Below the pieces are notes generated by a model. It was not told where the DNA came from. It did no database searches and saw only the letters and a program-made list of their open reading frames with translations. From NCBI GenBank assembly GCA_022749815.1, contig JAKIWV010000001.1, positions 310,001 through 374,000 of the forward strand: a stretch of 64,000 nt of DNA, in the 5' to 3' direction. This stretch comes from Thermoplasmata archaeon. Lineage in GTDB: Archaea > Thermoplasmatota > Thermoplasmata > Lutacidiplasmatales > UBA184. The translations under genes were made by a program, and so were the position numbers. Below, piece by piece: positions 27,559 through 45,068 of the stretch; position 1 is the stretch's first letter; each line of letters begins with the position of its first letter.

Positions 27559-27786
27559 TCAATCCCGCATGGAGGATTTCCGGGGGCCCGAGCCCGCCGA
27601 CCCGGGGGGCTCGGCCGCGACCGTCACTCGGCCGGCCTTGAGATCCAGCGTCCAGACCAAGTTCCCACCGGGCGCTGCCTCCAGCGCCTTGGCAACGCCC
27701 TCGGGAATCGTTGTCCGTACCGAATCTGATCCTTCCTGTGTCTTCTGGATGGCGGATCGGAAGGTTCCCGGCATTGACTCCCCCAT
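27559..27786 (-). CDS. AbrB/MazE-like swapped-hairpin DNA-binding protein
   Basis: TFRSAIQKTQEGSDSVRTTIPEGVAKALEAAPGGNLVWTLDLKAGRVTVAAEP; alignable with 33230..33424. Confidence 0.7.
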   Translation of the reverse strand: MGESMPGTFRSAIQKTQEGSDSVRTTIPEGVAKALEAAPGGNLVWTLDLKAGRVTVAAEPPGSAGSGPRKSSMRD

Positions 27787-27907
27787 CAGCCTGATTGGCG
27801 GCCGACTACATAATTATAGTCTAAGTGTAGGTCTTCCAGTAGCCAACAGACTTAAGTGCCTACGAGACAATAGGCTATCAGTAGCCAATAAGGCGAGGAG
27901 GAGGAAG

Positions 27908-29116
27908 GTGGCGACGTCTCTGGCACAAGCGAGCGACAGCGAACGGTGGAGGCGGCTCGCGTGGACGGACCAGAGGACTCCGGCCCTCGCCATCGTGGGG
28001 CGCGGCGATCAGATTCGGGCACTCGGTCCTACAACTTTCTCGGTGTGCTCGCAGAGCGACCGGGGATTGTTCCATCACGTTTGGAAGGATGGGGCACGGT
28101 GGAATTGTGACTGCCCATTCTTTTCCGCCACGCAGAAAACGTGCGTACACATTCTTGCGGTTCGGTTCCGCGAAGGGTTGCAGGAGTCGGCCCCGACCCA
28201 CGAGGACGCGGTGCTATGCGACCGTTGCCAGTCGGTCGCGGTGATTCGGTTCGGACTCCGACACAACAAGAGCGGGGATGTGCCGACGTACCTGTGCCGG
28301 ACGTGCGGCAAAAGGTTCGCTGGGCACGAGGGGTTCCACAAGCGCCGAGCGGACCCGGAGAAGATCGCGCTCGCGCTCGACCTCTACTTCCGGGGCATGA
28401 GCGTTCGGAAGGTCGCGGACCACTTTGCACAGGTCCACCGCCTCAAGGTCAACGCCTCGACCGTCTACCGGTGGGTCCGCTACTACTCGAAGCTCGCCGC
28501 CGAGTGGATGGATGCGCAGGGGGCGCGGACATCGGACCGCTGGCACATCGACGAGACGGTGGTCGGGGTGAACGGGGTCAACAAGTACCTCTGGAACGTC
28601 CTCGACCACGACACCCGATTCCTGCTCGCCACCCACATCAGCAAGGACCGCAGCCTGGCCGACACCCGGGCGCCGCTTGCCAAAGCGAAGGCCGTTACGG
28701 AGGACCGCCCGGCGGACGTTCTATCGGACGGCATGATGGCCTACCCGGAGGCGGTCAAGCAGGAGTTGGGCCACCGGGCCACTCCACTGGACGATCCGAA
28801 GCACGTTCACGCCGGTTGGTTCAACCCGCACAAGCGAGTTCCGAGCATCCGAGCGAAGGAGAGCAACAACCGGATCGAGCGATTCCAGGGCACGGAAAAG
28901 GAGAGGACCAAGGTCATGCGCTCCTTCGACAACGACGGAGGCGCCGCCGGGCTGATGGAGGGCTTTCGGGTCCACTACAACCTCGTCAAGACGCACCAGA
29001 AACTCGGCACGACTCCGGGCGAGGCCGCCGGGATTCCGACGGCCGACGGGTTCCGGTGGCGCCAAATTCTCCACGAGGCCACCACGCGAAAAGAAACACG
29101 CGAGGGGGGAAATTAG
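27908..29116 (+). CDS. IS6-like DDE transposase with N-terminal SWIM-type zinc motif
   Basis: WNCDCPFFSATQKTCVHILAVRF (CxC..CxH); zinc ribbon CDRCQS...CRTCGKRF; WHIDETVVGVNGVNKYLWNVLDHDTRFLLA...NNRIERFQGTEKERTKVMRSF. Confidence 0.85.
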   Translation: MATSLAQASDSERWRRLAWTDQRTPALAIVGRGDQIRALGPTTFSVCSQSDRGLFHHVWKDGARWNCDCPFFSATQKTCVHILAVRFREGLQESAPTHEDAVLCDRCQSVAVIRFGLRHNKSGDVPTYLCRTCGKRFAGHEGFHKRRADPEKIALALDLYFRGMSVRKVADHFAQVHRLKVNASTVYRWVRYYSKLAAEWMDAQGARTSDRWHIDETVVGVNGVNKYLWNVLDHDTRFLLATHISKDRSLADTRAPLAKAKAVTEDRPADVLSDGMMAYPEAVKQELGHRATPLDDPKHVHAGWFNPHKRVPSIRAKESNNRIERFQGTEKERTKVMRSFDNDGGAAGLMEGFRVHYNLVKTHQKLGTTPGEAAGIPTADGFRWRQILHEATTRKETREGGN

Positions 29117-30398: not shown

Positions 30399-30707
30399 GT
30401 GGCGGGGGACCCCTCTTTTTCTCCCCGACTTCTCGAGCGATGGCTGTCCGCACGGTTGGCGTCGAAGGGGACTCCTCCACCGCTTCGTGTGGTCCGGTTG
30501 GAAGGGCACCGGGCCCTGGTCAACGTCCCACATACCTGGGCACTGCGGGCCCGTACCGAGTGGAACGGCCGTTGGACCACGCCGGACGGTACCGACCTCG
30601 AGGTCCGGACGTACCGGACCTGGGGGACGCTCGTCGGCGGGAAACGCTGGCTCCGGCGCCGCGATGCGCCGCATCAGGTCGGCTTTGTGTCGAAACCCCC
30701 TGAGTGA
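30399..30707 (+). CDS. Small conserved protein downstream of ftsZ (weak resemblance to RNase P Pop5); native 3' end replaced at attL
   Basis: 102 aa; PPPLRVVRLEGHRALVNVPHTWALRARTEWNG...VRTYRTWGTLVGGKRWLRRRDAPHQVG|FVSKPPE, where the last 7 residues come from the integrated element. Confidence 0.55.
   Translation: MAGDPSFSPRLLERWLSARLASKGTPPPLRVVRLEGHRALVNVPHTWALRARTEWNGRWTTPDGTDLEVRTYRTWGTLVGGKRWLRRRDAPHQVGFVSKPPE
30668..30682 (+). repeat. attL core, direct repeat GCCGCATCAGGTCGG
   Basis: Identical to 43463-43477; see finding on the 12-8-12 attP reconstruction. Confidence 0.85.
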
Positions 30708-30713
30708 GTACGA

Positions 30714-30743
30714 TTCTGAAACACCCAGGTTGCCTTCTGAAAC
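30714..30743 (+). repeat. Left-arm paired direct repeat TTCTGAAAC x2 (21-bp period)
   Basis: 30714-30722 and 30735-30743. Confidence 0.6.
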
Positions 30744-30877
30744 GCCGTGCCCAGGAAGCTGATCGGGCGTCCTTCAAGACTATAAGACGGGAAGCGCTCT
30801 GTAGTCCGGGAAATCCGCTCTCGATTGGGAGGGGAGGGGCCGATGCGTCGGCCCCCTGAATCCCGACTACTGTGGCC

Positions 30878-31132
30878 ATGAGCGATCGGGACGATACCAA
30901 GTTCTGGATTGGTCTGGCGATTGTCTTGTTTGGCCCGGGCTATGCCGCCCAGCTCGAAAGCCAGGCATCCCAACAATCGGATCCCAAGTGGAGAGAGTTC
31001 TACCTCGGGGCGGCGGAGGTCGTTCGCGGGGCAGCGAAGAACCCTGAAGGAGCGACTGACGCGTTGGAAGAACTCTGGGATGCAATCTTCGGCCGAAAAG
31101 TTCGACGCCGGAAGCGAAAGTCAATCCGATAG
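30878..31132 (+). CDS. Small hypothetical protein, N-terminal hydrophobic and C-terminal basic
   Basis: MSDRDDTKFWIGLAIVLFGPGYAAQLESQ...GRKVRRRKRKSIR. Confidence 0.45.
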   Translation: MSDRDDTKFWIGLAIVLFGPGYAAQLESQASQQSDPKWREFYLGAAEVVRGAAKNPEGATDALEELWDAIFGRKVRRRKRKSIR

Positions 31133-31202
31133 CATTCCTGCAAACGGTTACACTTTCGACCTAGCTTTATCATACGCCGCTAGATGATCGAGGCGGGCTG
31201 AG

Positions 31203-31313
31203 ATGGCTCGAAAGCGGCGGGTGTCCTTCTGGGTGAGCAAGGGCCGTTCGAGGAAGGTCCGGGTCTCGTTCTTTGCCCGGAAGAAGCCGGGTCGTTCGAG
31301 ACGTAGAAAGTAG
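31203..31313 (+). CDS. 36-aa highly basic micro-protein
   Basis: ATG 31203: MARKRRVSFWVSKGRSRKVRVSFFARKKPGRSRRRK*, internal near-repeat (R)KVRVSF/RRVSF; below the ORF-track cutoff. Confidence 0.4.
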   Translation: MARKRRVSFWVSKGRSRKVRVSFFARKKPGRSRRRK

Positions 31314-31331
31314 GCCCCAACGTGAGGTCGA

Positions 31332-31802
31332 ATGCCGACCGCTTACCATCGTCGAGTCCAAGCGGCAATCATCCGGATTGGCCGTGAAAGCAAGAAAATC
31401 CGGAAGGTCTGGAACGACCGTCGTCCCCTTCATATCGTTCACCCGTACAAGAAGACGGCACTCCTCTACTACCCTGATGTTCGGTTCGAAACCCGGTCCG
31501 GAAAGCTCTGGCTCTTCGAGGTAATGGATTCCGAAACGGGGGCACAAGCACAACTGATTGCTCACGTCGTAGAACCCCTCCTAGTTGAAGGAGTGATTGC
31601 CGTTGTCCACATCGTAAAGTCAGATGCCGGGCAGGTGATTTTGGAAGATCTCAGCGACGTGATCGTGTCTCGAATGACAGATCTTGCCGGGCGAAAGGTC
31701 GATCAGCGACTGCGCTACTTCCGGGTCGTGATCACCCCGGAGGATTCACGTCGTATTGACAAAGTCCGGAAAATCTTCGCCCAAGGAGGAATCCGATTCT
31801 AG
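31332..31802 (+). CDS. Hypothetical protein, possible PD-(D/E)xK-like nuclease fold
   Basis: YYPDVRFETRSGKLWLFEVMDSET resembles a PD..(D/E)x core, but no ExK lysine is evident. Confidence 0.45.
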   Translation: MPTAYHRRVQAAIIRIGRESKKIRKVWNDRRPLHIVHPYKKTALLYYPDVRFETRSGKLWLFEVMDSETGAQAQLIAHVVEPLLVEGVIAVVHIVKSDAGQVILEDLSDVIVSRMTDLAGRKVDQRLRYFRVVITPEDSRRIDKVRKIFAQGGIRF

Positions 31803-31818
31803 CCCGGCGTACGTGAGG

Positions 31819-33105
31819 TCACACCCCTGATACGAGCGTGATGGGATTGCGGAGGAAGTCCGGCACGATCCCATGCTCGTAAAACTCGTGGATCAGCACC
31901 GTCAGGTTGTAAGCCACGACCTTCGCTAGGATTTCGTTCTCCTGGGCTACCCGCGTCTTCGACCTGAGACACTCTCCGAGCTTGCGCTTGAGGGCTGAAA
32001 AGACCGACTCAACGTTGCTCCTCTGGTGATACCGCTCGCCGAACTCCTCCGGGTGGTCCTGCGCGTAGTGGAACATCTTCGTCCACAGACGGGAGGAGAC
32101 ACGGCGTCCAAGGCGGTCCGGTTTGGCGCCTGTCGGGTTCGGCTTGTCGGTCCGCTTGACCGGGGACAAGAAATCAAAGTTTAGCTCCTCGGCAATCGCG
32201 TAGTTCGAACGCCCGTGGTAGGCCTTGTCGGCATAGACCTCCTTGAGACCGAATCCGTTCTGACGGGCGTTACGTATGAGATACTCGAACTGGGAGTAAT
32301 CCGACCCGTCCTTGTCAGTGATGACTACCGACACAATCGCGTGGGTCTTGATCCCAACCAGGGCGTGAAGCTTGAGCCAGTCGCGAATCCGATGTTCTCC
32401 GTGCTTGTCCTCCCGCCAGGCTCCAAAAAGCGTACTTTGCATCCCCGTAGAATCCGGCGCGAACCCCTCGTCTATACCGGCCAGCGGTAACGCGGACAAT
32501 GTAACCAGCCGTTCAAGGAGCTGCGTCGACTCCGGACGGTTCAGGAATCGACTTGAGACAACGTAGCCTGGGGCCTTTCCGAGGTTCCCCTCCCTCACCG
32601 CGTGTCTCAGATTCCCCTTCGCGGGGCGGCAGCCTTTCCCTTCGTACACCTTGCGAATTGAGCAGAATGCCTGGTCGCGGAGAGGTATGGAAGGACGTCC
32701 GAGCTGTCGTGAAGTGATACCAGGAGTTTCAAGCACATCGACCACGCCGCGGAGTAGGACATCGAAGAGCCTCGTCTCCTCCTGCTGCGCAAGATCGTAG
32801 GCAGCCCAATTCTGGGTGTAGACCTTCCGTTCGGAGGGTTTCTCCCCTGGAGTAGGGACCGGCTTGCTATTCGGAAACCAATGGAGGTAGACCCTGTAGA
32901 TGTGTTTACACGCCTCCCGTTCCCTCTTGAAATCTTCACAGTTGCAGCTCCAGTCGTTGCGACGCGTATCGAACGTAACCTTGTACCAACCCCGGCCGCT
33001 CTCAGATCGAACGAGCCACTGGTTGTCCAGCAAGCGCTCGACTCCACCGGGGTCCGACGCTCGCAACGCTTCTGCGCGCTGCCACCGGATCATGGAGCCG
33101 CCCAT
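31819..33105 (-). CDS. IS4/IS5-type DDE transposase with N-terminal SWIM-type zinc motif
   Basis: WSCNCEDFKREREACKHIYRVYLHW; DDE-like GIDEGFAPDSTGM..., VYADKAYHGR, RSNVESVFSALKRKLG. Confidence 0.85.
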   Translation of the reverse strand: MGGSMIRWQRAEALRASDPGGVERLLDNQWLVRSESGRGWYKVTFDTRRNDWSCNCEDFKREREACKHIYRVYLHWFPNSKPVPTPGEKPSERKVYTQNWAAYDLAQQEETRLFDVLLRGVVDVLETPGITSRQLGRPSIPLRDQAFCSIRKVYEGKGCRPAKGNLRHAVREGNLGKAPGYVVSSRFLNRPESTQLLERLVTLSALPLAGIDEGFAPDSTGMQSTLFGAWREDKHGEHRIRDWLKLHALVGIKTHAIVSVVITDKDGSDYSQFEYLIRNARQNGFGLKEVYADKAYHGRSNYAIAEELNFDFLSPVKRTDKPNPTGAKPDRLGRRVSSRLWTKMFHYAQDHPEEFGERYHQRSNVESVFSALKRKLGECLRSKTRVAQENEILAKVVAYNLTVLIHEFYEHGIVPDFLRNPITLVSGV

Positions 33106-33137
33106 AGTGCGCCTTCGTCCTCCCAATGGGACAATGT

Positions 33138-33165
33138 ATTGCCAATACTTAGAGTCTTTGGCAAT
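33138..33165. promoter_or_regulatory. Inverted repeat ATTGCCAA-N12-TTGGCAAT in the divergent transposase/AbrB promoter region
   Basis: 8-bp arms 33138-33145 and 33158-33165. Confidence 0.5.
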
Positions 33166-33229
33166 TCGAAGTCTTATTGTAGGGTCAATTATATGACCTC
33201 GACTGCCATAATCGAATCTGGTCTGGACT

Positions 33230-33424
33230 ATGGGGCGAGTGTTCGAGTCGAAGGTGGTCCGATCCGTCAAGAAGTCGCCATCGCTTCGGACAACTGTTCC
33301 AGAAGCGATCTCGACTGTGCTCGGTCTTGAGGCCGGTGACACGCTGCTCTGGGAGTTCGACCTGGGTGCCGCATCCGTCAAAGTCTCCCGCAAGAGCGGG
33401 AAGAAGGCACCAAGCCGAAGCTGA
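33230..33424 (+). CDS. AbrB/MazE-like swapped-hairpin DNA-binding protein
   Basis: VFESKVVRSVKKSPSLRTTVPEAISTVLGLEAGDTLLWEFDLGAASVKVSRKS. Confidence 0.75.
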   Translation: MGRVFESKVVRSVKKSPSLRTTVPEAISTVLGLEAGDTLLWEFDLGAASVKVSRKSGKKAPSRS

Positions 33425-33625
33425 CGGGTCCGTACCGACGTTCGGAGATCGCACGGAGGGGGATCGACCCAACCCCCTTCCGAAGAGCCGGCTAGGCCAC
33501 GGCTATTCGTAGATCGGCGTCGCAAGCATCCCACCTCCACCCGTGGTGACCCGCTCGCGACACATGATTCTACGAAACGAGGTTTAGCTCTTAAAGCCAA
33601 TTTACTGGAGGCAATAATCTTAAGT

Positions 33626-33647
33626 CTTAGACCTAATACCTTAGACC
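33626..33647 (+). promoter_or_regulatory. Tandem CTTAGACC repeats (14-bp period) immediately upstream of the wHTH gene
   Basis: CTTAGACC at 33626-33633 and 33640-33647; ATG at 33649. Confidence 0.45.
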
Positions 33648-33648
33648 C

Positions 33649-33978
33649 ATGCGTTCGACCTTAAGCCCGAAGGTTGCTGCCCCCGAACCGATGCCCCACG
33701 GCCGCGAGCCCGAACTAACAGTCGACCGTGTGATCCCCAAGAAACATCGGGCCGAGGTCTTGAGGGCTCTCGCTCGGGCGCCCGCCGGACTTCCCCATCA
33801 CACAATCCAGTACGATGTCGTGCGGGGATCCTCGGCGAGCACGATTCTCAACGAGTTCGTCAAGCTCGGGCTTGCTGAGTGGCACGACGACCTCTACTTC
33901 GCAACTGCCAAGGGAAAGGACACGATTACAGCCTACGACAAGTTCCGCGCAGTCGCGGTAGGTTCCAATGGAAACTGA
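33649..33978 (+). CDS. Small winged-helix protein, possible R-M controller
   Basis: KKHRAEVLRALARAPAGLPHHTIQYDVVRGSSASTILNEFVKLGLAEWHDDLYFATAKG; directly upstream of the methyltransferase. Confidence 0.6.
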   Translation: MRSTLSPKVAAPEPMPHGREPELTVDRVIPKKHRAEVLRALARAPAGLPHHTIQYDVVRGSSASTILNEFVKLGLAEWHDDLYFATAKGKDTITAYDKFRAVAVGSNGN

Positions 33979-33981
33979 GGG

Positions 33982-35514
33982 GTGGGGGTCTGGCGACGGG
34001 CACCTTCTGTTTCATCCCCTTACGCGCACCCCGAAGACCCCCGTTGCTGCTCGTCCGCTGATGAATGTAGGGAGAGGCTAGTGTCTGCAATAGCCCAGGT
34101 CAAGGCCCCTGTTGGGCAGGCACCCGGTGGCCGTGAAACGACCTCCCCTGTCCAGGCATTGGGCGAGACGGTCGCCCAGAGACTGTTCCCCGGCCATCTC
34201 GAACTTGTCCCCGGATTAAATGAGGTCTACGAACTCGAACTCGCCCTCTGTGAGAGCCGGATTCTTACGGATTCGGAGATTGTGCGCCACGGAGCATATT
34301 TCGCCAGCGTCGGCGAAACGCCGACGAACCATTATCTGATGTGCCGAGGAGAGCCCCTCCGTGTCGCCGACCATTCCTCGTCTCGACTTCGCTCGTTCTT
34401 CCAGGAAAACCAGTTCAAGACCGGCTACGGCACTCACGGCTTGTTTCCGTACCGGGGCAAGTTCCACCCTCAAATGACCAAGGCCTTGCTCAACATCATG
34501 GGTCTCAAGCCGGGAGAGACAGTCCTCGATCCGATGATGGGGTCGGGGACGGTTCTGATTGAGGCTCGGCTGATGGGGATACACTCGACCGGCGTGGACG
34601 CAAGTCCGTTCTGCGTCTTCATGGCTAAGGTAAAGTCCGAGGCCATCACACTCTCGCTCGCACCCCTCCGGGCCGCTCTTGAGGCCAGTGAACAGGTATT
34701 CCAGTTCTTCAGCTCACGATCCCCAGACGATGGAGGATCGAAGTCTCCGGCCACCGCCACAGGTAACGTGTCCGATCTCCGCAAGTGGTCAGATGAACCG
34801 GGGGGTAGGCCTCGGAAAGAGCATTGGACCGTGGTCGACTTGCCGGATGGATTGGAGGCCGGCCCGGTGCGTGATTTCTTGCTGCTCGCTTATCTCGACA
34901 GCGCCGGCTACGCCGAGCGGAGCCAACGAAAATCGCACTTGGTTCAGTTCAAGTCGATCCTAGAAAGGTACGTATTCTCCGTCGAGAAGATCCAAAGGGT
35001 CCTCTCGGGTGTTGAAGGCGACCTGGGCACAACTACTCCCACTCTCGGCGACGCCCGCAAGCTGCGGATGCATGATGAGTGCGTGGACGGAATCCTCTTC
35101 TCCCCGCCCTACAGCTTCGCGCTCGATTACGTCTCGAACGACGCCCTCCATCTGAGGTATCTCGGTATCGACGTAGACGAATTGAGATCCAACATGGTCG
35201 GCCTGATCGGGCAGACACCGCGCGAGAGGGTCGAGAACTACAGACGAGACATGGAATCCGTGTTGGGGGAGTGCAACCGTGTTCTGCGGGCCGGAAGACT
35301 CTGCACCATCGTCGTCGGGACCAACAACAACCAAATCGGTAAGGCCCTGGATCTCCCTCCCGAGAAGGTCCAAGGGACTGACGAATTCCTAACGGAGGCC
35401 GGTCAGCGGCAGGGGCTGAAGCTCGTCCGTACCTTCACTCGTCAGATTACCGGCATGGCGAACACTATGCGAACCGAGTCTATCCTAGTGTTTCAGAAGA
35501 TCCCGGACGCCTAA
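33982..35514 (+). CDS. Amino-DNA methyltransferase (TRM11-like class I MTase)
   Basis: TVLDPMMGSGTVLIEARLMGIHSTGVDASPFC and FSPPYSFALDYV (SPPY). Confidence 0.82.
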   Translation: MGVWRRAPSVSSPYAHPEDPRCCSSADECRERLVSAIAQVKAPVGQAPGGRETTSPVQALGETVAQRLFPGHLELVPGLNEVYELELALCESRILTDSEIVRHGAYFASVGETPTNHYLMCRGEPLRVADHSSSRLRSFFQENQFKTGYGTHGLFPYRGKFHPQMTKALLNIMGLKPGETVLDPMMGSGTVLIEARLMGIHSTGVDASPFCVFMAKVKSEAITLSLAPLRAALEASEQVFQFFSSRSPDDGGSKSPATATGNVSDLRKWSDEPGGRPRKEHWTVVDLPDGLEAGPVRDFLLLAYLDSAGYAERSQRKSHLVQFKSILERYVFSVEKIQRVLSGVEGDLGTTTPTLGDARKLRMHDECVDGILFSPPYSFALDYVSNDALHLRYLGIDVDELRSNMVGLIGQTPRERVENYRRDMESVLGECNRVLRAGRLCTIVVGTNNNQIGKALDLPPEKVQGTDEFLTEAGQRQGLKLVRTFTRQITGMANTMRTESILVFQKIPDA

Positions 35515-36122
35515 CGCAGCGCCCTTCCATCGGTCCCCTTGGCGATGTGTGGGACCGCCTCGCTCAGGCTATCGTGCTCGACTACGAACATCGCGAGGAG
35601 ACCTGATTCAATTCCCTCCGCGCGTCGCCACAGCGGTAGATACGGTTTCAGTTCGTCGAAATTGCCAATTCTGTCGGTCAGATGTTGATACATCTTACGA
35701 CTTGGGAGTACTAGGATTCCAGCAGCCATTAGCCGATAAATCAACGCGAGCACCATCTTGTTCATCGATCGATGGCTCGAAGAGACGTTACCTGTCTCCC
35801 ACTCCACACAGAACACCTTTCCATTGATTCTGTGGGTGGCATCGAAGTCTCCGGGCGAGATCTCTAGGTAGGGGTCGAAAGGAATTTCGCGTCCCCAGTC
35901 TAAGTCAGCGAGTCGCTCCAGAAACATCTCTTTGATCGGGACTACGCCATTCTCGTGCCTGGAGTTCGGGCCATTTCCTGCGAAGAGGCTGAAGCTACCG
36001 GACCCGACCGGCCAGTCCACCTGCCGAATGGCCAACTCGATTTCCTGCTCCGCTTGCTTCCATTCTACCGAATCCGAAATCCCCCCCAGATCGATCAGGA
36101 TCTCCTTGCCGACGAGCTTCAT
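35511..36122 (-). CDS. BamHI-like type II restriction endonuclease
   Basis: NGVVPIKEMF...FDATHRINGKVFCVEWETGNVSSSHRSMNKMVLAL...YQHLTDRIGNFDELKPYLPL...IAKGTDG mirrors BamHI (NGVVPIKEL, EFETGNISSAHRSMNKLLLGL, YYLTDRVTNFEELEPYFEL, IPKGSDG). Confidence 0.85.
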   Translation of the reverse strand: MKLVGKEILIDLGGISDSVEWKQAEQEIELAIRQVDWPVGSGSFSLFAGNGPNSRHENGVVPIKEMFLERLADLDWGREIPFDPYLEISPGDFDATHRINGKVFCVEWETGNVSSSHRSMNKMVLALIYRLMAAGILVLPSRKMYQHLTDRIGNFDELKPYLPLWRRAEGIESGLLAMFVVEHDSLSEAVPHIAKGTDGRALR

Positions 36123-36293
36123 CTTCTCGCAGCTCTCGGCGTAGCTCTCTGCCCCCAGGGACTGGGAGTTGGGTCCGAGGATGTATACCTCCCGTTGATC
36201 CGCGTCCTCCTACGTGTCGCCCGCTGCCTCTCGGCCAGAGAGGTCGCCCGTTACTGCCCGATCTGAACGGGCCAGGTCCTCGACAAGCGGAGC

Positions 36294-37631
36294 TTAGGTC
36301 CCCCGGGAATCGAGATCATTGAGGCTCTGCACCGCCTCGCTACTACCGCTGTCGGCTAGACGGGTGAGCAGGAGCCGATGGGCTTCAGTAGCCCCCCGCT
36401 CGCCGCCGAATGCCTTGATTGGGGACTTGTCCCGAGTCCAATCGAATCCAGCGAGCGGTCCCACGAGCTCCTTCACTCGCTCTTTCGTGGGTGTCTTCCC
36501 CTGTGGCAGAGCCCACTTGAACACGTCCGCCGCGAGACCGTTGAGGGCATACACCGCGAGAGTCCGAAGCAGCAGGTGACGAGCTGTGTCTTGGAAAGCA
36601 TCGGGAAACAGGTAACGGAGAACGGTCCAGTATTCTCGGAGATACTTCAGCTCCTTCTCGTGCTGGGACTCACGGAACTTTTCGTCTCGCTGCTCCGTCT
36701 CTTTGTCGAAGAACTCTGGGATATCGAAGAGGTCCCTCAGCGACGTTACGAATGAACTGAGGCGCACACGCCGCGCCATCCCAGGGGACGCAGCCGCCTC
36801 GGCGATCAGGCCCTTCAGCGGGGACTCGTGACGGTTTAGATCTTCCACCAACCGAGTTGCATACGGGCGCCATTCCTCTTCTTCTATCGCCGGGATTCCA
36901 CGTATGCCGGAGAACCAAATGCGGTAAGCTAGCTGATCCCTCAGTGAGGGATTCAACCCCTTCTGGGTCTTGTTCAGAATGAAGAAAATAACTCGCTCGG
37001 CTTCATCCTGAGTCAACGATTGATTCTTGAAGTGGGCAGCCCTCTTTCCCTCGGCGGCCTTGATCGCGCCGGAGATGTCGACTGCCGTGATTGGGATCGG
37101 AGAATCGAGGATGTGTCGCATGAACTCTCGTCGTTCACGGGCCGGTTCCTCGACAACCGGATCCAAGCGCGCGCGGGATTCGAGAACGCTCAGCTCATCT
37201 GCAATAAGCTGGAAGCCTGCAACTCGGTGCTGACCGTCAATCACGCGAATCGATTTCTGGACCCGGGGAACCGAAAGTGTACCGAAGTCCTGCCCGTCGG
37301 TGTGCGCAAAGATAGACTCGGCCCCTACCCCAACGAGCAACGCCGGAATTACAGAAATGGGGCACCGCTCCAGGTACGCCTGCACATCTCTGGCCTTCTT
37401 CTCGAATAACTTCCGCTGGTACCAATCGAGTTCCTCGGCGCTGAACTGCTTAACATCGTAGACCGCCAGCAGGTCGGATGGTTTGATCTTCCCTGAGTAG
37501 ACGGGGATGCCCTTGACATCGGAAAGCACAGCGGGAACACGAATTTTCCTTCCGCCCACGCGGTGAGTTCTCCTTGCATGGCCCGCTGCCGGCTCGTCTT
37601 CGGAAACCGTATCCACTACCCCTGCGGTCAT
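36294..37631 (-). CDS. DGQHR-domain protein (DndB/DpdB-like superfamily)
   Basis: 445 aa; SIRVIDGQHRVAGFQL motif; FFILNKTQKGLNPSLRDQL. Confidence 0.8.
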   Translation of the reverse strand: MTAGVVDTVSEDEPAAGHARRTHRVGGRKIRVPAVLSDVKGIPVYSGKIKPSDLLAVYDVKQFSAEELDWYQRKLFEKKARDVQAYLERCPISVIPALLVGVGAESIFAHTDGQDFGTLSVPRVQKSIRVIDGQHRVAGFQLIADELSVLESRARLDPVVEEPARERREFMRHILDSPIPITAVDISGAIKAAEGKRAAHFKNQSLTQDEAERVIFFILNKTQKGLNPSLRDQLAYRIWFSGIRGIPAIEEEEWRPYATRLVEDLNRHESPLKGLIAEAAASPGMARRVRLSSFVTSLRDLFDIPEFFDKETEQRDEKFRESQHEKELKYLREYWTVLRYLFPDAFQDTARHLLLRTLAVYALNGLAADVFKWALPQGKTPTKERVKELVGPLAGFDWTRDKSPIKAFGGERGATEAHRLLLTRLADSGSSEAVQSLNDLDSRGT

Positions 37632-37733
37632 CGGTTCTCCTCTCCCCCATTACGCGACGGGTTATTAAGTCGCATCCTGCTGCGAGGCGTAACTTAGAGC
37701 ATCTTTATGAGGGAGTGGGGATCTCGAAAGAAT

Positions 37734-37816
37734 GGGGCCGTAGGGAATTGGAAAAACCCACCCGTCTTCCAAACGGGTCCAGCAGTGGTTTGGGCGTTAG
37801 ATTCGCCCCGGCCCCA
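37734..37816 (+). tRNA. tRNA-like gene, anticodon TCC, class-II-like variable arm, non-consensus T-loop
   Basis: Acceptor GGGGCCG/CGGCCCC 7/7; D-arm GGG..GG..CCC; anticodon stem CCCGT/ACGGG, loop CTTCCAA; 14-nt variable arm TCCAGCAGTGGTTT; T-stem GGGCG/CGCCC, loop TTAGATT; A73; TATA-like TCTTTATGA about 29 nt upstream. Confidence 0.65.
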
Positions 37817-37868
37817 TCCTCATCCGACGCACAGCTTCGGAAACGATAAGGGTTTCGGGACCCGCTGA

Positions 37869-37905
37869 GGTAGAAGTAGAAGAAGAAGTAGAAGTAGTAG
37901 TCAGT
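37869..37905 (+). repeat. Purine-rich GTAGAA-type simple repeat
   Basis: gaggtagaagtagaagaagaagtagaagtagtag. Confidence 0.6.
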
Positions 37906-37937
37906 CCCTCGACCGGTTTGTGCCGAGAGCCGGATCA

Positions 37938-38075
37938 GTGCCTAAGCCCGGCCCCAAGGTTACGTGTCCGAAATGTCAGCACAGTTGGAGGCGTCGACCA
38001 GGCGCGCTGGCTCGGGTAAAGTGCCCAAATTGTGGAAAAAACTTCCAGCTCCCTCTTAGGGAGACGCCCTCGTGA
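37938..38075 (+). CDS. 45-aa zinc-ribbon protein
   Basis: GTG 37938: VPKPGPKVTCPKCQHSWRRRPGALARVKCPNCGKNFQLPLRETPS*; two CPxC knuckles; shorter than the ORF-track cutoff. Confidence 0.6.
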   Translation: MPKPGPKVTCPKCQHSWRRRPGALARVKCPNCGKNFQLPLRETPS

Positions 38076-38130
38076 GCGCCGAGATCTCTATTAGGCGGCG
38101 TCTCGTGCGCTGAGACGAGGAGGATGTGAA

Positions 38131-39297
38131 GTGCGCGTCCTCCTGGTCGAGCCGGACTACTACACGCGCTATCCTCCCCTCGGCCTCCTCAAGCTGGCCT
38201 CCTATCACCGTGCGAAGAACGACACAGTCGAATTGATCCGCGCACCTGCTGAACCAACGCAGCCACCCGATCGCATCTACGTAACATCGCTGTTCACGTA
38301 CGCCTGGCGGCCGGTGCATGAGGCAGTACGCTCCTACAAGGACCGATTTCCCCGGGCTGATGTCCGGCTAGGGGGGATCTACGCCTCTCTTCTACCAGAG
38401 CACGCTCGCCTGTCAGGAGCCGATCATGTCCAAGTTGGCCTCGTGCCAGAGGCGGAATCCCACATGCCCGCCTACGACCTCGTTCCGGAGTGGACGTCGA
38501 CGATCCTCTTCGCCTCCCGGGGGTGCATCCGCCGATGTGGGTTTTGTTCCGTCCCCAAACTCGAAGGCCGCCCGAGCGAACTTCGGTACGAGCTCGAACG
38601 GTTCATCTATCCGGGGCACAAGAAGGTCATACTCTGGGACAACAATATCCTCGGAAACCCGAACTGGAAACCGTTGTTTGACGACATAATCCGGCTCGGC
38701 ATCGAGGTGGACTTCAATCAGGGGCTCGACGCCCGCCTGTTGACCGACGAGGTTGCGGAGAGGATCTCGCACATGCGGATGTCGTCGATACGGCTCGCGT
38801 ACGATTACATTGGGATCCGGCCTGCTGTCCAAGCGGCGGTCTCCCGATTAAGAGAGCACGGAGCATCGACACGGAAGGTGATCGTTTACACGCTCTTCGA
38901 CTACGTCGACGACCCGGAGAATTTCTTCCACCGGGTCCGGGACCTCCTTAATTGGGGGGCGGTGTCCTACCCGATGCGCTTCGAGCCCCTCACGAGCTTG
39001 GCCAAGAATCAGTTCGTCAGCCCGCACTGGACCGCCGAGGCTCTAACCCGGGTGGCGAAGGCCCGCCGCGTGTTGGGGTTCGCGGGCGCGTTTCCTCCCT
39101 ACAAGGGGCTCGTGGAGAAGCTGAACGCCTCCGGGACGTTTGATGAAGCGTTCTCGCTCCGACCCGTGCAGAAGGAGCGGCAAGGAGTTCCACAAAACAC
39201 GCTATCGGAGATCTCTGAGGAAACTCTAGTCCCGATCACGTACCACGGATCGGGACGGCTGAGGAAGGTGAAGGATTGGCGGAAAATGCTCGCGTAA
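38131..39297 (+). CDS. B12-binding-domain radical SAM protein
   Basis: MRVLLVEPDYYTRYPPLGLLKLASY; SRGCIRRCGFCSVPK (CxxxCxxC). Confidence 0.88.
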   Translation: MRVLLVEPDYYTRYPPLGLLKLASYHRAKNDTVELIRAPAEPTQPPDRIYVTSLFTYAWRPVHEAVRSYKDRFPRADVRLGGIYASLLPEHARLSGADHVQVGLVPEAESHMPAYDLVPEWTSTILFASRGCIRRCGFCSVPKLEGRPSELRYELERFIYPGHKKVILWDNNILGNPNWKPLFDDIIRLGIEVDFNQGLDARLLTDEVAERISHMRMSSIRLAYDYIGIRPAVQAAVSRLREHGASTRKVIVYTLFDYVDDPENFFHRVRDLLNWGAVSYPMRFEPLTSLAKNQFVSPHWTAEALTRVAKARRVLGFAGAFPPYKGLVEKLNASGTFDEAFSLRPVQKERQGVPQNTLSEISEETLVPITYHGSGRLRKVKDWRKMLA

Positions 39298-39533
39298 ACG
39301 ATCTGTTCCTCTGGCAGATCGGTTCCCAAGGCCCTCCGGCGACCTGCCTGTGCTGCGGTCGACGCTTCGATCAAGAGAACCGCCGTATCCGCGGTCCCTA
39401 TCTCACGAGCCCTTACATCTATGTCTGCCAGGAATGCTGGGCCCTGCCGTTCGTCTTCTACCCGGACAAGATCGAGATGATGCGGGCCGATGGGTACCTC
39501 CTGCCGGAACGGTCGAGTACCAAGCGGCGCTGA
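39276..39533 (+). CDS. Small zinc-finger protein
   Basis: CLCCGRRFDQENRR...YVCQECWALPF; overlaps the radical SAM 3' end (TTG start). Confidence 0.6.
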   Translation: MAENARVNDLFLWQIGSQGPPATCLCCGRRFDQENRRIRGPYLTSPYIYVCQECWALPFVFYPDKIEMMRADGYLLPERSSTKRR

Positions 39534-39557
39534 GCGCGCCGCAGGTGCGTCGATAGT

Positions 39558-40241
39558 CTACCGCTCGGTCGCTCGTTCGAACAACTCACGAGCCCCATGG
39601 AAGTCCTCAACGCCGTGAGAGTCCGCGTGTGACGAAGGTCCGCCGGGCCGAGTAATCTGTATCCTCAATGAGAGGTCCGTGAACGCGACCACGTCGCTTG
39701 CGGTATCTCCGATTCCGCACGAGAATGATGCCCCCTCGGAAAGGGCGGTTGAAACGTACCCTTTCTTTGTTTCTGCATCCATAGGAGGGCCGCATGTCCC
39801 GGTGAACCTCCCATCGCGTGTGTGGAGGGTCAACGCAGCCACGGAGTCGAAGGCGTAGCGCTCAAGGATCGGGGCCAGGGCAACATCGGGAGAGGCGGTG
39901 ATCAGGACCAACCTGGCACCAGTCCGTCTGCAGTGCTCGTAGAATCCGTCGAAGCCTTTACTGTAGTCAATTTTCTCAGATAGCGATAGGGCCACCTCGC
40001 GGACGACCGACTCCTCCAGCCCGCGCACGCAGCGTGCGTATTGCGCGCTCTGTCGACGAATAGCCTCGTCGTACGGGACCCCCGAATCACGCTTGAACAG
40101 CTTCTGGTTGGCACAATATGGCTCCCATTCCCCCATCAACTCCCTGGCGTGGAGCTCGTCCGCGAGCATGAGGCCCATGGACCCTCGAATCACCGTTCCG
40201 TCGAGGTCGAGCACAACCAGGGCGCTAGTGGGTCCAAGCAT
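39558..40241 (-). CDS. HAD-superfamily hydrolase (SerB-like phosphatase)
   Basis: LVVLDLDGTVIRGSMG; LVLITASPD; GIGDTASDVVAF. Confidence 0.82.
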   Translation of the reverse strand: MLGPTSALVVLDLDGTVIRGSMGLMLADELHARELMGEWEPYCANQKLFKRDSGVPYDEAIRRQSAQYARCVRGLEESVVREVALSLSEKIDYSKGFDGFYEHCRRTGARLVLITASPDVALAPILERYAFDSVAALTLHTRDGRFTGTCGPPMDAETKKGYVSTALSEGASFSCGIGDTASDVVAFTDLSLRIQITRPGGPSSHADSHGVEDFHGARELFERATER

Positions 40242-40962
40242 GGTTGAATTCGCATTCGAAATTCTGTGGAGGGGGTAGGTGCTTGGCGAAATTCTGGGGG
40301 AACCCATCCTCGGCTTTGTCCGCCAGAATACTGTAGAGCCCAACGTGACCTGCCGTGAAAATGCCGACTAGGACAACCAACAACGCGATTACCGGGATCG
40401 ATGTGGAGATAGCTAACGCAAGGAACGCCCCACCGACCCCCAAGGCGCTGTTGATCCCACCTACTAAGACGATCTGCCAGAAGTACGGGCTCCGTGAACC
40501 CTCGTACATGGGTGGCTCCCATGCCGAAATCGGTAGAACGATGAACTTCCGGATGTTAGGGTTCCGCGAGTAGAAGTACCGACGGACTCCGTTGATCGTG
40601 CGTGCGTACAAAAGCATCTCACACCGGAGCCCAATCAACGAGATACATGCAGAAACGCCTAGCAGGCCTAGGACGAGAAATAGGCCCCCGAGTAGTCGCA
40701 AGTCATCGAATGCCGCGGGCGCGACATACAGCTTTGGAAGGATTTGGAGTATCAACGTCGACGCTGCGACCCCGGCGGCCATTAATGCGAGGTACGTTCG
40801 AAGGATCTCGTTCAGCTGGGTGTAGAGTGAGAAGAAGGACTGGGCGATCGTCGAGTATTCTTGCAGCATGAAGGCAGAGCCCTCATCGGTGACGGCGCCA
40901 GCCGCGGTGGCGCCTCCGGTCCCAGATCCGGGCGGACTACTGACCGAGGAGCCCACCATCAC
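40225..40962 (-). CDS. Multi-TM membrane protein, translationally coupled to the HAD gene
   Basis: 245 aa with four hydrophobic segments; 17-nt overlap with the HAD start. Confidence 0.65.
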   Translation of the reverse strand: MMVGSSVSSPPGSGTGGATAAGAVTDEGSAFMLQEYSTIAQSFFSLYTQLNEILRTYLALMAAGVAASTLILQILPKLYVAPAAFDDLRLLGGLFLVLGLLGVSACISLIGLRCEMLLYARTINGVRRYFYSRNPNIRKFIVLPISAWEPPMYEGSRSPYFWQIVLVGGINSALGVGGAFLALAISTSIPVIALLVVLVGIFTAGHVGLYSILADKAEDGFPQNFAKHLPPPQNFECEFNHAWTH

Positions 40963-41159
40963 AGTAGGCCCAATGGGGAAGCTGGTATGAATGCGTCGAC
41001 TCCCTGTGCGGGACGACCGGGGCCCTATCGACCGTCAACTCGAACCCGAACACTCCAAGAGCCATTAGCCCTTGGACGATTTGTGATGGACGCCGAGCAA
41101 CTCACGGACAGGTCTTTCTGCCGCTGATACAGGACATCATCATAGGCCTGGGCAGCGCC

Positions 41160-41393
41160 GTGTTCGGGGCGCTTCTCCTACCGACGCTGCTCAATGGCCA
41201 AGCCAAGGTCCCCCTCGCAACCTCATTGACGACCGGGATACTCCTTGCGGTTGAGGCGGCTGTATTCCTCAGCCTTGGGCTAGTCTTCACAACGGTGACG
41301 ACGGCCTTCACGGCCCTCGTGTGGTTACTTGTGGCGAAGTTCCGGCGGCCGAGACACGCAGTCCGCGATCAATCCGTCCACGAGGGGGTTTGA
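41160..41393 (+). CDS. Small two-TM membrane protein (start may lie upstream)
   Basis: FGALLLPTLLNGQAKVPLATSLTTGILLAVEAAVFLSLGLVFTTVTTAFTALVWLLV. Confidence 0.5.
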   Translation: MFGALLLPTLLNGQAKVPLATSLTTGILLAVEAAVFLSLGLVFTTVTTAFTALVWLLVAKFRRPRHAVRDQSVHEGV

Positions 41394-41410
41394 AGGCCGC
41401 AACGGACCGC

Positions 41411-41824
41411 CTAGCTTGGTGGCTCAACAGCCCTTGGGAGCATCCGGACCCTTCGAGGGCTTGTGCCCGAGGGGATGCCGGCGGAGATCTGAGCTGCGAG
41501 TCTTGACGGTTCGGCTGGTAGGCCCTTCCCCTCTTGGGCCGACATCCAGTCCAGGAGCGCCATCGCGCCTATTCCGGCAATGGCCCCGAGGGCCAGCGAC
41601 CCGTCCCAGCCCAGATGAATCCCTTCCTGAGCATGGCCGCACCCAGCGCATTCCCAACGCTGAGAGGAGAGACGGGCCCCCTCCACGACCGCAGTGCACT
41701 TAGGGCAACGGACCGGGAGGGAGTCGACCTGCTTGAGACCACTTTGGAGGAGGCGACTCTGCGCTTCCTTCAGAAGCTGAAGTTCGACATCAGTCAGCTT
41801 GAGACTCGTGGGCACGAATACCAC
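41411..41824 (-). CDS. Zinc-ribbon protein with one TM segment
   Basis: VRCPKCTAVV...WECAGCGHAQ...LALGAIAGIGAMALLDWM. Confidence 0.6.
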   Translation of the reverse strand: MVFVPTSLKLTDVELQLLKEAQSRLLQSGLKQVDSLPVRCPKCTAVVEGARLSSQRWECAGCGHAQEGIHLGWDGSLALGAIAGIGAMALLDWMSAQEGKGLPAEPSRLAAQISAGIPSGTSPRRVRMLPRAVEPPS

Positions 41825-41956
41825 GGAATACCGAGGTGGTTATAAGACTACTCGCGTATTCTTCGGTGGTAGCCTCACCACCATGGAACTGGTATGACCA
41901 CTTTACGTAGGACTAAGTAAAATGACTCCTTCCGCCCGTTAGTAGGAACTCGCGGA

Positions 41957-42559
41957 ATGGCTTTAGAAATGCAAGTCCGACCTGAGTCGGTGGACAGCCT
42001 GCGAATGAGGCTCCGAAACCTGATCAGCGGGAAGGCTTTCCTCGTTCGAGACGCTTCTGAGGAGCCCTTCGAATTGGCGTCGGGAGACAAGAGCTGGACG
42101 TACTTCGATTGTAAGACCGTCACTCAGGATCCTGAGGCTCTGAACCTCATTGCCGAGTTGATTTTCGATCGGATAAGAAACTATAATGTGAATGCCATCG
42201 GTGGATTGGAATCTGGCGCCATTCCAATATCCACTGCAGTCTCGATGCTAAGCTTCCAACGAGGCAAACCCATACCCTCATTCTGGGTTAGGCACGAGCG
42301 GAAGACTCGTGGGACCAAGAACAGGGTAGAGGGAACCCTACGACAGAATTCTCAAGTCGTGGTAATCGACGATGTAACGACGAAGGGTGCTTCGGCCGGG
42401 CTCGCCGTAGATGTCGTTCGGGAGGAGTTCCATTGCAATGTGATAGAGATCATTACAATGGTCGATCGGGAGGAAGGAGCGCGTCAGCGGTTCAAGGACA
42501 TGGGAATACAGTTCACTCCTCTCTTTGTGAGGTCCGATTTTAGGGCGTCCTCCCCGTGA
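41957..42559 (+). CDS. Orotate phosphoribosyltransferase-like PRTase
   Basis: IGGLESGAIPISTAVS; VVVIDDVTTKGASAGLAVDVV PRPP loop. Confidence 0.82.
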   Translation: MALEMQVRPESVDSLRMRLRNLISGKAFLVRDASEEPFELASGDKSWTYFDCKTVTQDPEALNLIAELIFDRIRNYNVNAIGGLESGAIPISTAVSMLSFQRGKPIPSFWVRHERKTRGTKNRVEGTLRQNSQVVVIDDVTTKGASAGLAVDVVREEFHCNVIEIITMVDREEGARQRFKDMGIQFTPLFVRSDFRASSP

Positions 42560-43214
42560 CTTCCATTCGGACTTGGGGATGGAAGGTCTCCGACCCGTCG
42601 AAGACGTTCGCGACAAGGTCGACCTGACCAATCTGAAGCTTACGCCTCATGTGTTTGACGAACTCCTCCATTGATGAGGTCTGTCTGAGAGCGAGGGAGT
42701 CGGCTGGATCGCTTTCAGAGGCAATCATTCCGAGCTGATTCGGCGCGCCCAATTTCTTGGCGCGACTCGCAAACCACTTCATGAATTCGAGGTCCTTCGC
42801 ACTGAGTTCGGGCTCATCGACATGATAGTGGAGTAAGCCGAGCAGGCCGTTCGCATTCGACGATGGCCCCGCAATACTCCGAAGGAATTTCCGAGGAGGA
42901 TACTCCTCTTCATCCTCTTGCTCGGATGGCGTCTCGTTCGTTAGGAGGATGCAACTCCATCTCTCGTCAAGAATGTAAGGTAACAGCCATTGCTCCAGGA
43001 ATTCAGACCTCTCTCTGTCAATGAATTTGGCTGCGTGTTTTCCCCGGTTCCCTCTACAAACGAGAAGATCCAATCTCCTGAGGGTCCGAACTGAGCCGCG
43101 TATTCCGAATAGCGCGCAAATTGGCTCTACTACCACAGATCTATGAAATTCTGTAGAGTAACCAATGTTCTTGTAAAGTTGAATCCAGAACGGATCGAGC
43201 GTATCAAGAGCCAT
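42540..43214 (-). CDS. Hypothetical protein at the right end of the element
   Basis: From MALDTLDPFWIQLYKNIGYSTEFHR...; overlaps the convergent PRTase 3' end. Confidence 0.5.
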   Translation of the reverse strand: MALDTLDPFWIQLYKNIGYSTEFHRSVVVEPICALFGIRGSVRTLRRLDLLVCRGNRGKHAAKFIDRERSEFLEQWLLPYILDERWSCILLTNETPSEQEDEEEYPPRKFLRSIAGPSSNANGLLGLLHYHVDEPELSAKDLEFMKWFASRAKKLGAPNQLGMIASESDPADSLALRQTSSMEEFVKHMRRKLQIGQVDLVANVFDGSETFHPQVRMEVTGRTP

Positions 43215-43407
43215 CGCCACGCTTCGCGAGGAATCGGTCGTTGGGCTCTCGGGGTCCCTCAACGGTGGTTCGTGACTCTTACTCGGTAGTGGTAGATTAG
43301 GGCGTCCACAGGCGTGAACCGTTACCGGTCCTCTATGCTGCAGATTTGCCACCGCGGGTTGGGCGTGGCGCATATACTCGATTGGGTACCCCCGATCAGT
43401 GCCGTGC

Positions 43408-43441
43408 GGACTTTTGAAACAGCCGGGGGACTTTTGAAACA
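43408..43441 (+). repeat. Right-arm paired direct repeat GGACTTTTGAAACA x2 (20-bp period)
   Basis: 43408-43421 and 43428-43441. Confidence 0.75.
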
Positions 43442-43462
43442 CTCTTATCGTTCTGACACAAA

Positions 43463-43477
43463 GCCGCATCAGGTCGG
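43463..43477 (+). repeat. attR core, direct repeat GCCGCATCAGGTCGG
   Basis: Identical to 30668-30682. Confidence 0.85.
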
Positions 43478-43529
43478 GGCCATTAAATAAGGGACCCCGC
43501 CGTATTTCACCGGGCCACCTGGTCCACTC

Positions 43530-45068
43530 ATGCGTCGCGGTTGGAGGTTACTCCGTCAGCACGGGCGCCGCGGTCGCTCGGGCCAAGTGAGCGCCGTCGC
43601 CACCGTCCTGGCGTTGATGCTCTTCGTGTCGTTCCTGGCGACCTTCGTCCTGGGCCAGTTGAACTCCCAGATGGCGCAAAAGGAGTTCCAACACCAGCTC
43701 TTGGTGGAGAACCAGATGTCGCGCCTGCAGACGGCGATCCTCCAGTCCGTCGCCGCCTTCGAGGGCAACGGGAGCACCTTCCTCTCCTCCCCGGTCACCC
43801 TCAGTTCGGGCGGGGCGCCCCCCTTTGGAGTCCCGTCCGGAGGCTCGCTTCAACCCGAACCCGCCACCATCGCCACCGCCGCCCGCTTCTCTATTTCCAG
43901 CCTCTCGAACGCTCCGGTGGAGTGGAACGACGGCACGGCCTGCTTCGCCGCCGGTAGCGGTACCTGTACCGCGGGGAGCGGTCTCGAGGTCTACAATTTC
44001 TCCGGGAACCACAGTGCCGCCACCCCGACCGTGAACGGGTGCGCGGGCGGTGGATGCACCGTGGTCTACAACGTGTCGGGGAGCTTTAACACGCTGAGCC
44101 TCACTCTTTCCGGAGCGACGCTGGGCAACGTGCTGTACCAGGTCTCGGGAAATTGGGACAACCTGACTCTGAACTACGGAGTGACCTGCAGCAATCACCA
44201 GAGCGTGACGATCATCTTCTCCGGAAACAACGACACCTACAAGCTGGCCGCGACCGGATGCACCAGTGCGCCCGGGGCCTCCATCAACACGACCTTCGTC
44301 GGATCCAGCGGGAACCAGTGCCCGTACGGTTCCGCGTCGCGCTCCGACAAGTTCCTCGGCGCGACGTGGGCTTCCTCCACCGGGGTCTATCAGAACCTGA
44401 CCTGGCGGAACGCCCTCGGGACCGTCTCGGCCCCCCACACGGTCCCCGCGAACGGTGGGAACGACCACCTGACGTTCGCGAACACGAGCGGGTACTTCCA
44501 GTGCCTCTTCACGACCTCGACCACCACCGGGCCCTACACGCTCGATTTCCTGTCCGGCGTGCAAGCGAAGCTGAACAACCGATACATCACGCCGTCGGCC
44601 GTGGCGTACGACCAGGGGGCAGTGATCCTCGGCGTCCAGAACGGCGGCTCGGTCATGCTGAGCCCGCCCGAAGTGTCGTTCGTCCAGAATCCCTCGGGCG
44701 TGGCGTTCAGCATCATGCTGGTCAGCGTCACCGGCGCTACGGGAATCGCTACGGGCTTCGGCACCGCGGCGGTGATCTCGAGCATTCTCTCGGTCCAGAA
44801 CTACCAGATCACCGACGGGAAGCCGGGGACCCAATTCCTGCCGTTCTTCTACCTCAACATCACGACCGCCTATCCGCAAGCGTGGGCCACGTTCTGGGCC
44901 TCGCAAGGACCCGTGGACCCGACCGGCACCACCTGTGTTCCGGGCACGGGCGTCACAGCGGCCAACTGTCTCTCCCCTCCGTACGGACGAACTTCGACGA
45001 TCGTGGTGCCGATCAACGCGAACCAGTTCGACCTCACGACCATCATCGCGCAGGTCAGTATCTACTGA
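43530..45068 (+). CDS. Archaeal pilin-like/secreted surface protein
   Basis: 512 aa; SGQVSAVATVLALMLFVSFLATFVLG N-terminal helix, Ser/Thr/Asn-rich ectodomain. Confidence 0.7.
   Translation: MRRGWRLLRQHGRRGRSGQVSAVATVLALMLFVSFLATFVLGQLNSQMAQKEFQHQLLVENQMSRLQTAILQSVAAFEGNGSTFLSSPVTLSSGGAPPFGVPSGGSLQPEPATIATAARFSISSLSNAPVEWNDGTACFAAGSGTCTAGSGLEVYNFSGNHSAATPTVNGCAGGGCTVVYNVSGSFNTLSLTLSGATLGNVLYQVSGNWDNLTLNYGVTCSNHQSVTIIFSGNNDTYKLAATGCTSAPGASINTTFVGSSGNQCPYGSASRSDKFLGATWASSTGVYQNLTWRNALGTVSAPHTVPANGGNDHLTFANTSGYFQCLFTTSTTTGPYTLDFLSGVQAKLNNRYITPSAVAYDQGAVILGVQNGGSVMLSPPEVSFVQNPSGVAFSIMLVSVTGATGIATGFGTAAVISSILSVQNYQITDGKPGTQFLPFFYLNITTAYPQAWATFWASQGPVDPTGTTCVPGTGVTAANCLSPPYGRTSTIVVPINANQFDLTTIIAQVSIY

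Follow-up and report, generated by a model that had tools for sequence, protein, structure and literature searches.

The 64,000-nucleotide window analysed here, from an archaeal genome of the order Lutacidiplasmatales (described in PMC9287336), contains a 12.8-kb integrated element that is very probably a cut-and-paste DDE unit transposon of the IS5/IS1182-like superfamily, with defence cargo and, in archaea, promoter targeting. Terminal inverted repeats (TIRs), target-site duplications (TSDs) of 9-10 bp and variable sequence, an empty site with one target copy and a D-D-E transposase are all found, and the element ranks among the largest in a coherent family of transposons that carry defence genes and target promoters. 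Coordinates without a prefix are window positions; G000 is the host genome, C1, C2 and C3 are host contigs and L-numbers are the loci compared.

Ends, empty site and transposase

The 15-bp direct repeat GCCGCATCAGGTCGG reported by the first-pass annotation stands in exact copies at 30668-30682 and 43463-43477, and the 12-mer CGGCTTTGTGTC lies at 30680-30691 on the forward and at 43455-43466 on the reverse strand. With up to one mismatch, this 12-mer has two matches in the window, both at element ends, where 0.18 are expected, and no shuffle gave two. Joined, the ends read GACACAAAGCCG-CATCAGGT-CGGCTTTGTGTC, the perfect 12-8-12 palindrome that the annotation had described. An empty site, for which it had proposed a search, is present: of five congeneric genomes, four (G002-G005; L003-L006) have the left flank contiguous with the right flank, one target copy and no element; the reading frame of a short open reading frame (ORF) at the insertion site runs on through that single copy. 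With its ends thus defined, the proposal of an integrated, accessory mobile element of about 12.8 kb is borne out. We suggest that an 11-bp TIR, GGCTTTGTGTC, next to a 10-bp TSD, GCATCAGGTC, describes the unit better. The ends, the transposase gene and the adjoining promoter are as follows.

30671..30680, no strand: left TSD copy, 10 bp, GCATCAGGTC, read directly, with an exact copy at 43466-43475 and a single copy in congener empty sites
30681..30691, + strand: left TIR, GGCTTTGTGTC, the end 3' of the transposase gene
30712..30745, - strand: two left subterminal repeats, TTCTGAAACACC and TTCTGAAACGCC, putative transposase-binding sites, starting about +32 and +53 from the end and inverted relative to the TIR
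31819..33600, - strand: transposase, 593 aa, SWIM zinc finger and DDE_Tnp_1; D383, D458 and E531 invariant in 15 homologues
43410..43442, - strand: two right subterminal repeats, ACTTTTGAAACA, at +24 and +44 from the end and with the same orientation as the right TIR on inward reading
43455..43465, - strand: right TIR, GGCTTTGTGTC
43466..43475, no strand: right TSD copy, GCATCAGGTC
43476..43489, + strand: target promoter element GGGGCCATTAAATA of the pilin-like gene that lies downstream and starts at 43530; its TATA is at 43483-43489, and a closely similar sequence stands at congener empty sites

The nearest NCBIfam model of the transposase is transpos_IS5_2, at 107 bits here and 104-138 bits in ten relatives, so that, unlike IS5, all 11 transposases tested fall short of the curated cut-off of 140 bits; the group lies close to this named model, yet just outside it. 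The family is unnamed in NCBIfam, and literature searches, the scope of which did not extend to promoter targeting, found no description of it. A PDB sequence search with the transposase gave no match, and DNA-level matches to the left part of the element are confined to the transposase region, besides two of about 30 bases. The element would presumably be moved by this transposase of its own.

Exact copies of CGGCTTTGTGTC number five in the host genome: the two ends of the 12.8-kb element, C2:25666 and C2:31925, which are 6.26 kb apart, and C3:24203. The C2 pair bounds a second element (G000:C2:25666-31925; L052:10667-16926), which has the same 12-bp arms, a duplicated 8-bp spacer, CCCTTCCA, and empty sites in three congeners. 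Both of its ends resemble the type found 3' of the transposase, and its cargo includes a 1062-aa pro-kumamolisin-type protease with a Hint-domain-like C terminus. The lone TIR, CGGCTTTGTGTCTAAACCC at G000:C3:24203 (L054:10204), has a transposase fragment 3.8 kb outside it; a partner end was found neither in about 26 kb nor genome-wide by the TSD and TIR pattern.

A family of related elements and its cargo

Relatives were sought by a systematic scan for GGCTTTG-like ends with exact duplications at loci around homologous transposases. This recovered dozens of elements with GGCTTTG TIRs and exact 9-10-bp TSDs of varied sequence, mostly around homologous transposases; a reversed-sequence control gave 8 matches, summed over TSD lengths 8-10. 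The motif GGCTTTGTGTCTAAAC gave almost nothing near the transposases of relatives, because the part beyond GGCTTTG varies among subfamilies, and it was the generic TIR and TSD search that succeeded. We retained 45 elements for analysis, the 12.8-kb one included, of 2.5-14.5 kb (median 4.8 kb), the largest having nested ends (L183). Among their hosts are Thermoplasmata, Micrarchaeota, Methanothrix, Methanocorpusculum, Aenigmatarchaeota and a few bacteria, and some members lie on IMG/VR contigs.

Below the ends, copies of the inner TIR motif form an asymmetric array at fixed offsets: the transposase-5' side has direct ones at +23 and +43 (26 elements each), the transposase-3' side inverted ones at +32 (27 elements) and +52 (23 elements). 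A repeat copy at p <= 0.05 against shuffles is present at 65 of 90 family ends, and the repeats of the 12.8-kb element fit the family in orientation and spacing (left, inverted at about +32/+53; right, direct at +24/+44). Most simply, these arrays would represent three putative transposase sites per end.

Two loci depart from the simple layout. At L160:110-5042 a 2.46-kb member is present as two head-to-tail units with the same 9-bp sequence between them, either a tandem insertion or an assembly artefact, and L183:55-15940 holds several GGCTTTGCC ends with one common 9-bp duplication, GTCTACTCC, as in a nested or composite element.

A BamHI-type restriction-modification pair belongs to the roughly ten passenger genes of the 12.8-kb element, and in the family as a whole cargo of this kind is enriched. 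Within a sample made up of the closest relatives only, DNA methylases and restriction families top a Pfam tally of 94 cargo proteins, and PADLOC concurs; flank proteins of the same loci, taken as a control, belong to housekeeping families, with methyltransferase and restriction families not among the top ones. An amino-methyltransferase motif is present in 14/96 cargo and 1/317 flank proteins (Fisher p = 8e-9, a statistic that ignores phylogeny). Individual scans of the family cargo also gave BrxC/D-like, KwaB-like, AIPR and Mrr-like proteins and type I specificity domains. The cargo is predicted to act in defence. Two elements from distant archaea, L105:6277-8308 and L152:3515-5676, have in common a ParB_N-domain protein close to a proteasome-like one, possibly an undescribed cargo system. 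The passenger genes of the 12.8-kb element are listed below.

31332..31802, + strand: 156-aa protein, no family found
33649..33978, + strand: winged-helix-like regulator (HVO_A0261_N, below the curated cut-off)
33982..35514, + strand: DNA methyltransferase (N6_N4_Mtase; SPPY motif; PADLOC type II methyltransferase)
35511..36122, - strand: BamHI-family restriction endonuclease (Pfam BamHI, 8.5e-48)
36294..37631, - strand: DGQHR/DndB-like protein
38131..39297, + strand: possible B12-binding/radical SAM protein (weak match)
39558..40343, - strand: HAD-family hydrolase
40225..40962, - strand: protein with hydrophobic stretches, no family
41411..41824, - strand: zinc-ribbon protein (weak match)
41957..42559, + strand: phosphoribosyltransferase-like protein (just below the cut-off)
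42540..43469, - strand: 309-aa ORF, no family; the longest form begins inside the right TIR/TSD, and a shorter start gives 42540-43442

Insertion beside core promoters

The promoter element GGGGCCATTAAATA adjoins both insertions in the host genome and occurs nowhere else in it, even with one mismatch. Across the family, a TATA regular expression (regex) has 34 matches just outside the TSD at offsets 5-9, where 0.9 are expected, and nearly none at other offsets. When the flank with more A/T is taken for each element, seven or more of the eight positions at offsets 6-13 are A/T in 33/43 archaeal elements; other offsets given the same treatment yield 3-7/43. Five further archaeal elements, identified once the hypothesis had been written down, all conform by this measure. 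The consensus beyond the TSD, GRAARSTTTATATA (G-R-A-A-R-S-T-T-T-A-T-A-T-A), corresponds to a TFB-recognition element (BRE) followed by TATA, so that archaeal insertions fall directly upstream of a core promoter and at a fixed distance from it. The distance from insertion to start codon is often about 36-46 bp; ORF starts are not much commoner at TATA flanks (17/24 versus 37/62).

The offset is precise to the base pair, and selection against gene damage alone is therefore insufficient as its cause. We infer that transposition is promoter-directed, perhaps through TBP/TFB. In the mechanism that we propose, the SWIM-domain transposase would bind the TIR together with both subterminal sites of each end, and insertion would proceed by a 9-10-bp staggered cut, which here would have left the 10-bp duplication. 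Archaeal members insert just upstream of the host BRE/TATA core promoter and leave it intact, likely guided to the site either by recruitment through promoter-bound TBP/TFB or by direct recognition of promoter DNA.

Yeast Ty3/Ty1 retrotransposons integrate precisely at promoters via basal transcription factors and spare the gene. The present family is alike in its precise promoter integration that spares the gene, with TBP/TFB as the presumptive partners, and unlike them in being made up of archaeal DDE DNA transposons at RNA polymerase II-like promoters. We see about even chances that this archaeal defence-carrying family contacts promoter-bound TBP/TFB and lands just upstream of the BRE, the target gene keeping its promoter, as a prokaryotic counterpart of Ty3-TFIIIB targeting.

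Alternative readings and known systems

The first-pass annotation had taken the palindrome hidden in the joined ends as the mark of a tyrosine-recombinase core and the element as a product of attP/attB recombination. An integrative element of this kind would have the 32-bp junction as its attP, with an 8-bp overlap, and a recombinase, the chromosomal Xer-like protein, acting in trans; the perfection of the 12-8-12 junction, the 15-bp direct repeats and the one Xer-like protein encoded in the genome are in its favour. But any TIR element joined around one TSD copy yields such a palindrome, an automatic product of TIR, TSD and TIR, which is therefore no indication of a tyrosine recombinase. A tyrosine recombinase normally requires a matching overlap sequence, whereas the duplicated spacers of the 12.8-kb and the second element differ (CATCAGGT versus CCCTTCCA) between identical arms, which largely refutes this reading. 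TSDs differ among family members too, and only a few bases are common to target and arms. A search of the host genome with PF00589 gave a single match, the Xer-like protein at C1:633669; a recombinase elsewhere in the genome, as the annotation had suggested looking for, thus exists, some 280 kb away from the element, and no integrase was found within the element, which has a DDE transposase of its own and bears the subterminal repeat array of the family at both ends. Further copies of the 32-bp core, also suggested as a check, are absent from the genome, and the right-end sequence GACACAAAGCCGCATCAGGTCGG has no match in it beyond the 12.8-kb element itself at up to three mismatches. We regard a tyrosine-recombinase element as extremely improbable. 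Hardly more credible is that the DDE transposase gene belongs to an unrelated insertion sequence (IS) nested in an island whose ends are served by another transposase. The gene does lie 1.1 kb from the nearest end, not abutting it, and the second element has the same TIR and no intact transposase; against this, other genes closely flank the transposase ORF, around which convincing IS ends are lacking, and homologous transposases lie within GGCTTTG-ended elements with matching end arrays, often 20-70 bp from the TIR.

Several observations nevertheless weigh against a promoter-targeting DDE transposon. No transposition was seen, our analysis being confined to sequences, and nearly all compared genomes are metagenome-assembled. 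The ends of the 12.8-kb element can also be parsed as an 8-bp TSD with a 12-bp TIR, the 10-bp TSD being preferred because of the comparison with the transposon family, and its subterminal repeats match the TIR weakly (8/13), not significantly when taken alone. The transposase of the second element is decayed and distantly related (27% identity), with two stops; without an intact transposase, trans-mobilization must be assumed for that element. Of the five later archaeal elements, one matches the strict TATA regex fixed beforehand; the A/T-profile version to which all five conform was chosen afterwards. Furthermore, the copies on IMG/VR contigs (L235-L257) have the same TIR and a 9-10-bp TSD but no TATA preference; targeting is therefore not a property of the whole clade and may be host-dependent. 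The lack of preference in these phage-contig copies also favours the view that promoter proximity reflects survival in intergenic regions, or a liking for A/T-rich DNA at a fixed distance, in place of recognition of a promoter complex: selection acts against insertions in genes, and flexible DNA is often preferred by transposases. We consider this possible but rather unlikely, as the distance between TSD and TATA box is fixed at 6-8 bp and other offsets have almost no such box, the BRE-like GRAA is conserved too, and a start codon often comes next at the spacing usual for a promoter.

Among known systems, the IS903 group of the IS5 family is alike in its DDE_Tnp_1 transposase with transpos_IS5_2 as best model. 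The IS903 TIR starts with GGCTTTGTTG, which resembles the GGCTTTG of the present family. The TSD of 9-10 bp found here compares with one of 9 bp reported for IS903B (PMC9769513). Unlike IS5/IS903, the present elements have a SWIM zinc finger at the transposase N terminus, cargo of several genes, asymmetric arrays at their ends and archaeal promoter targeting. Tn7-like transposons share end arrays of transposase sites, defence-rich cargo, with restriction-modification the commonest, and targeted insertion (PMC8649781), but they use Tns proteins in place of a single IS5-like transposase and differ in TSD length. Their transposases are reported to be absent from archaea (PMC8649781), and no TnsB/TnsC-type proteins were found when the main ORFs of the 12.8-kb element were scanned with Pfam. 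Transporter IS (tIS) are likewise IS derivatives with passenger genes in one TIR pair (PMC9330008), whereas here such genes are the rule, more numerous and defence-biased. Archaeal casposons and IS-like transposons share the combination of TIR and TSD, and archaeal mobile elements may carry restriction-modification genes (PMC6563490); the IS-like transposons in that survey have 1-2 genes, unlike the multi-gene element described here, and the same Pfam scan of main ORFs found no Cas1, so that the element does not qualify as a casposon.

Transposon-borne defence has so far been charted mainly in bacteria, in Tn7-like elements; the present family would add an archaeal carrier of restriction-modification, BREX-, Kiwa- and AIPR-like genes, and sequence alone suffices to delimit its ends. 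With its base-pair-precise placement at BRE/TATA, it makes a simple prokaryotic model for studying how promoters are located by a transposase, and its insertion sites offer a means of mapping core promoters in uncultured archaea.

Just upstream of ftsZ, at window positions 27569-29116, a 515-aa IS6/IS240-like transposase also has an N-terminal SWIM zinc finger, a curious occurrence of this finger on a second, unrelated transposase type within the same genome.

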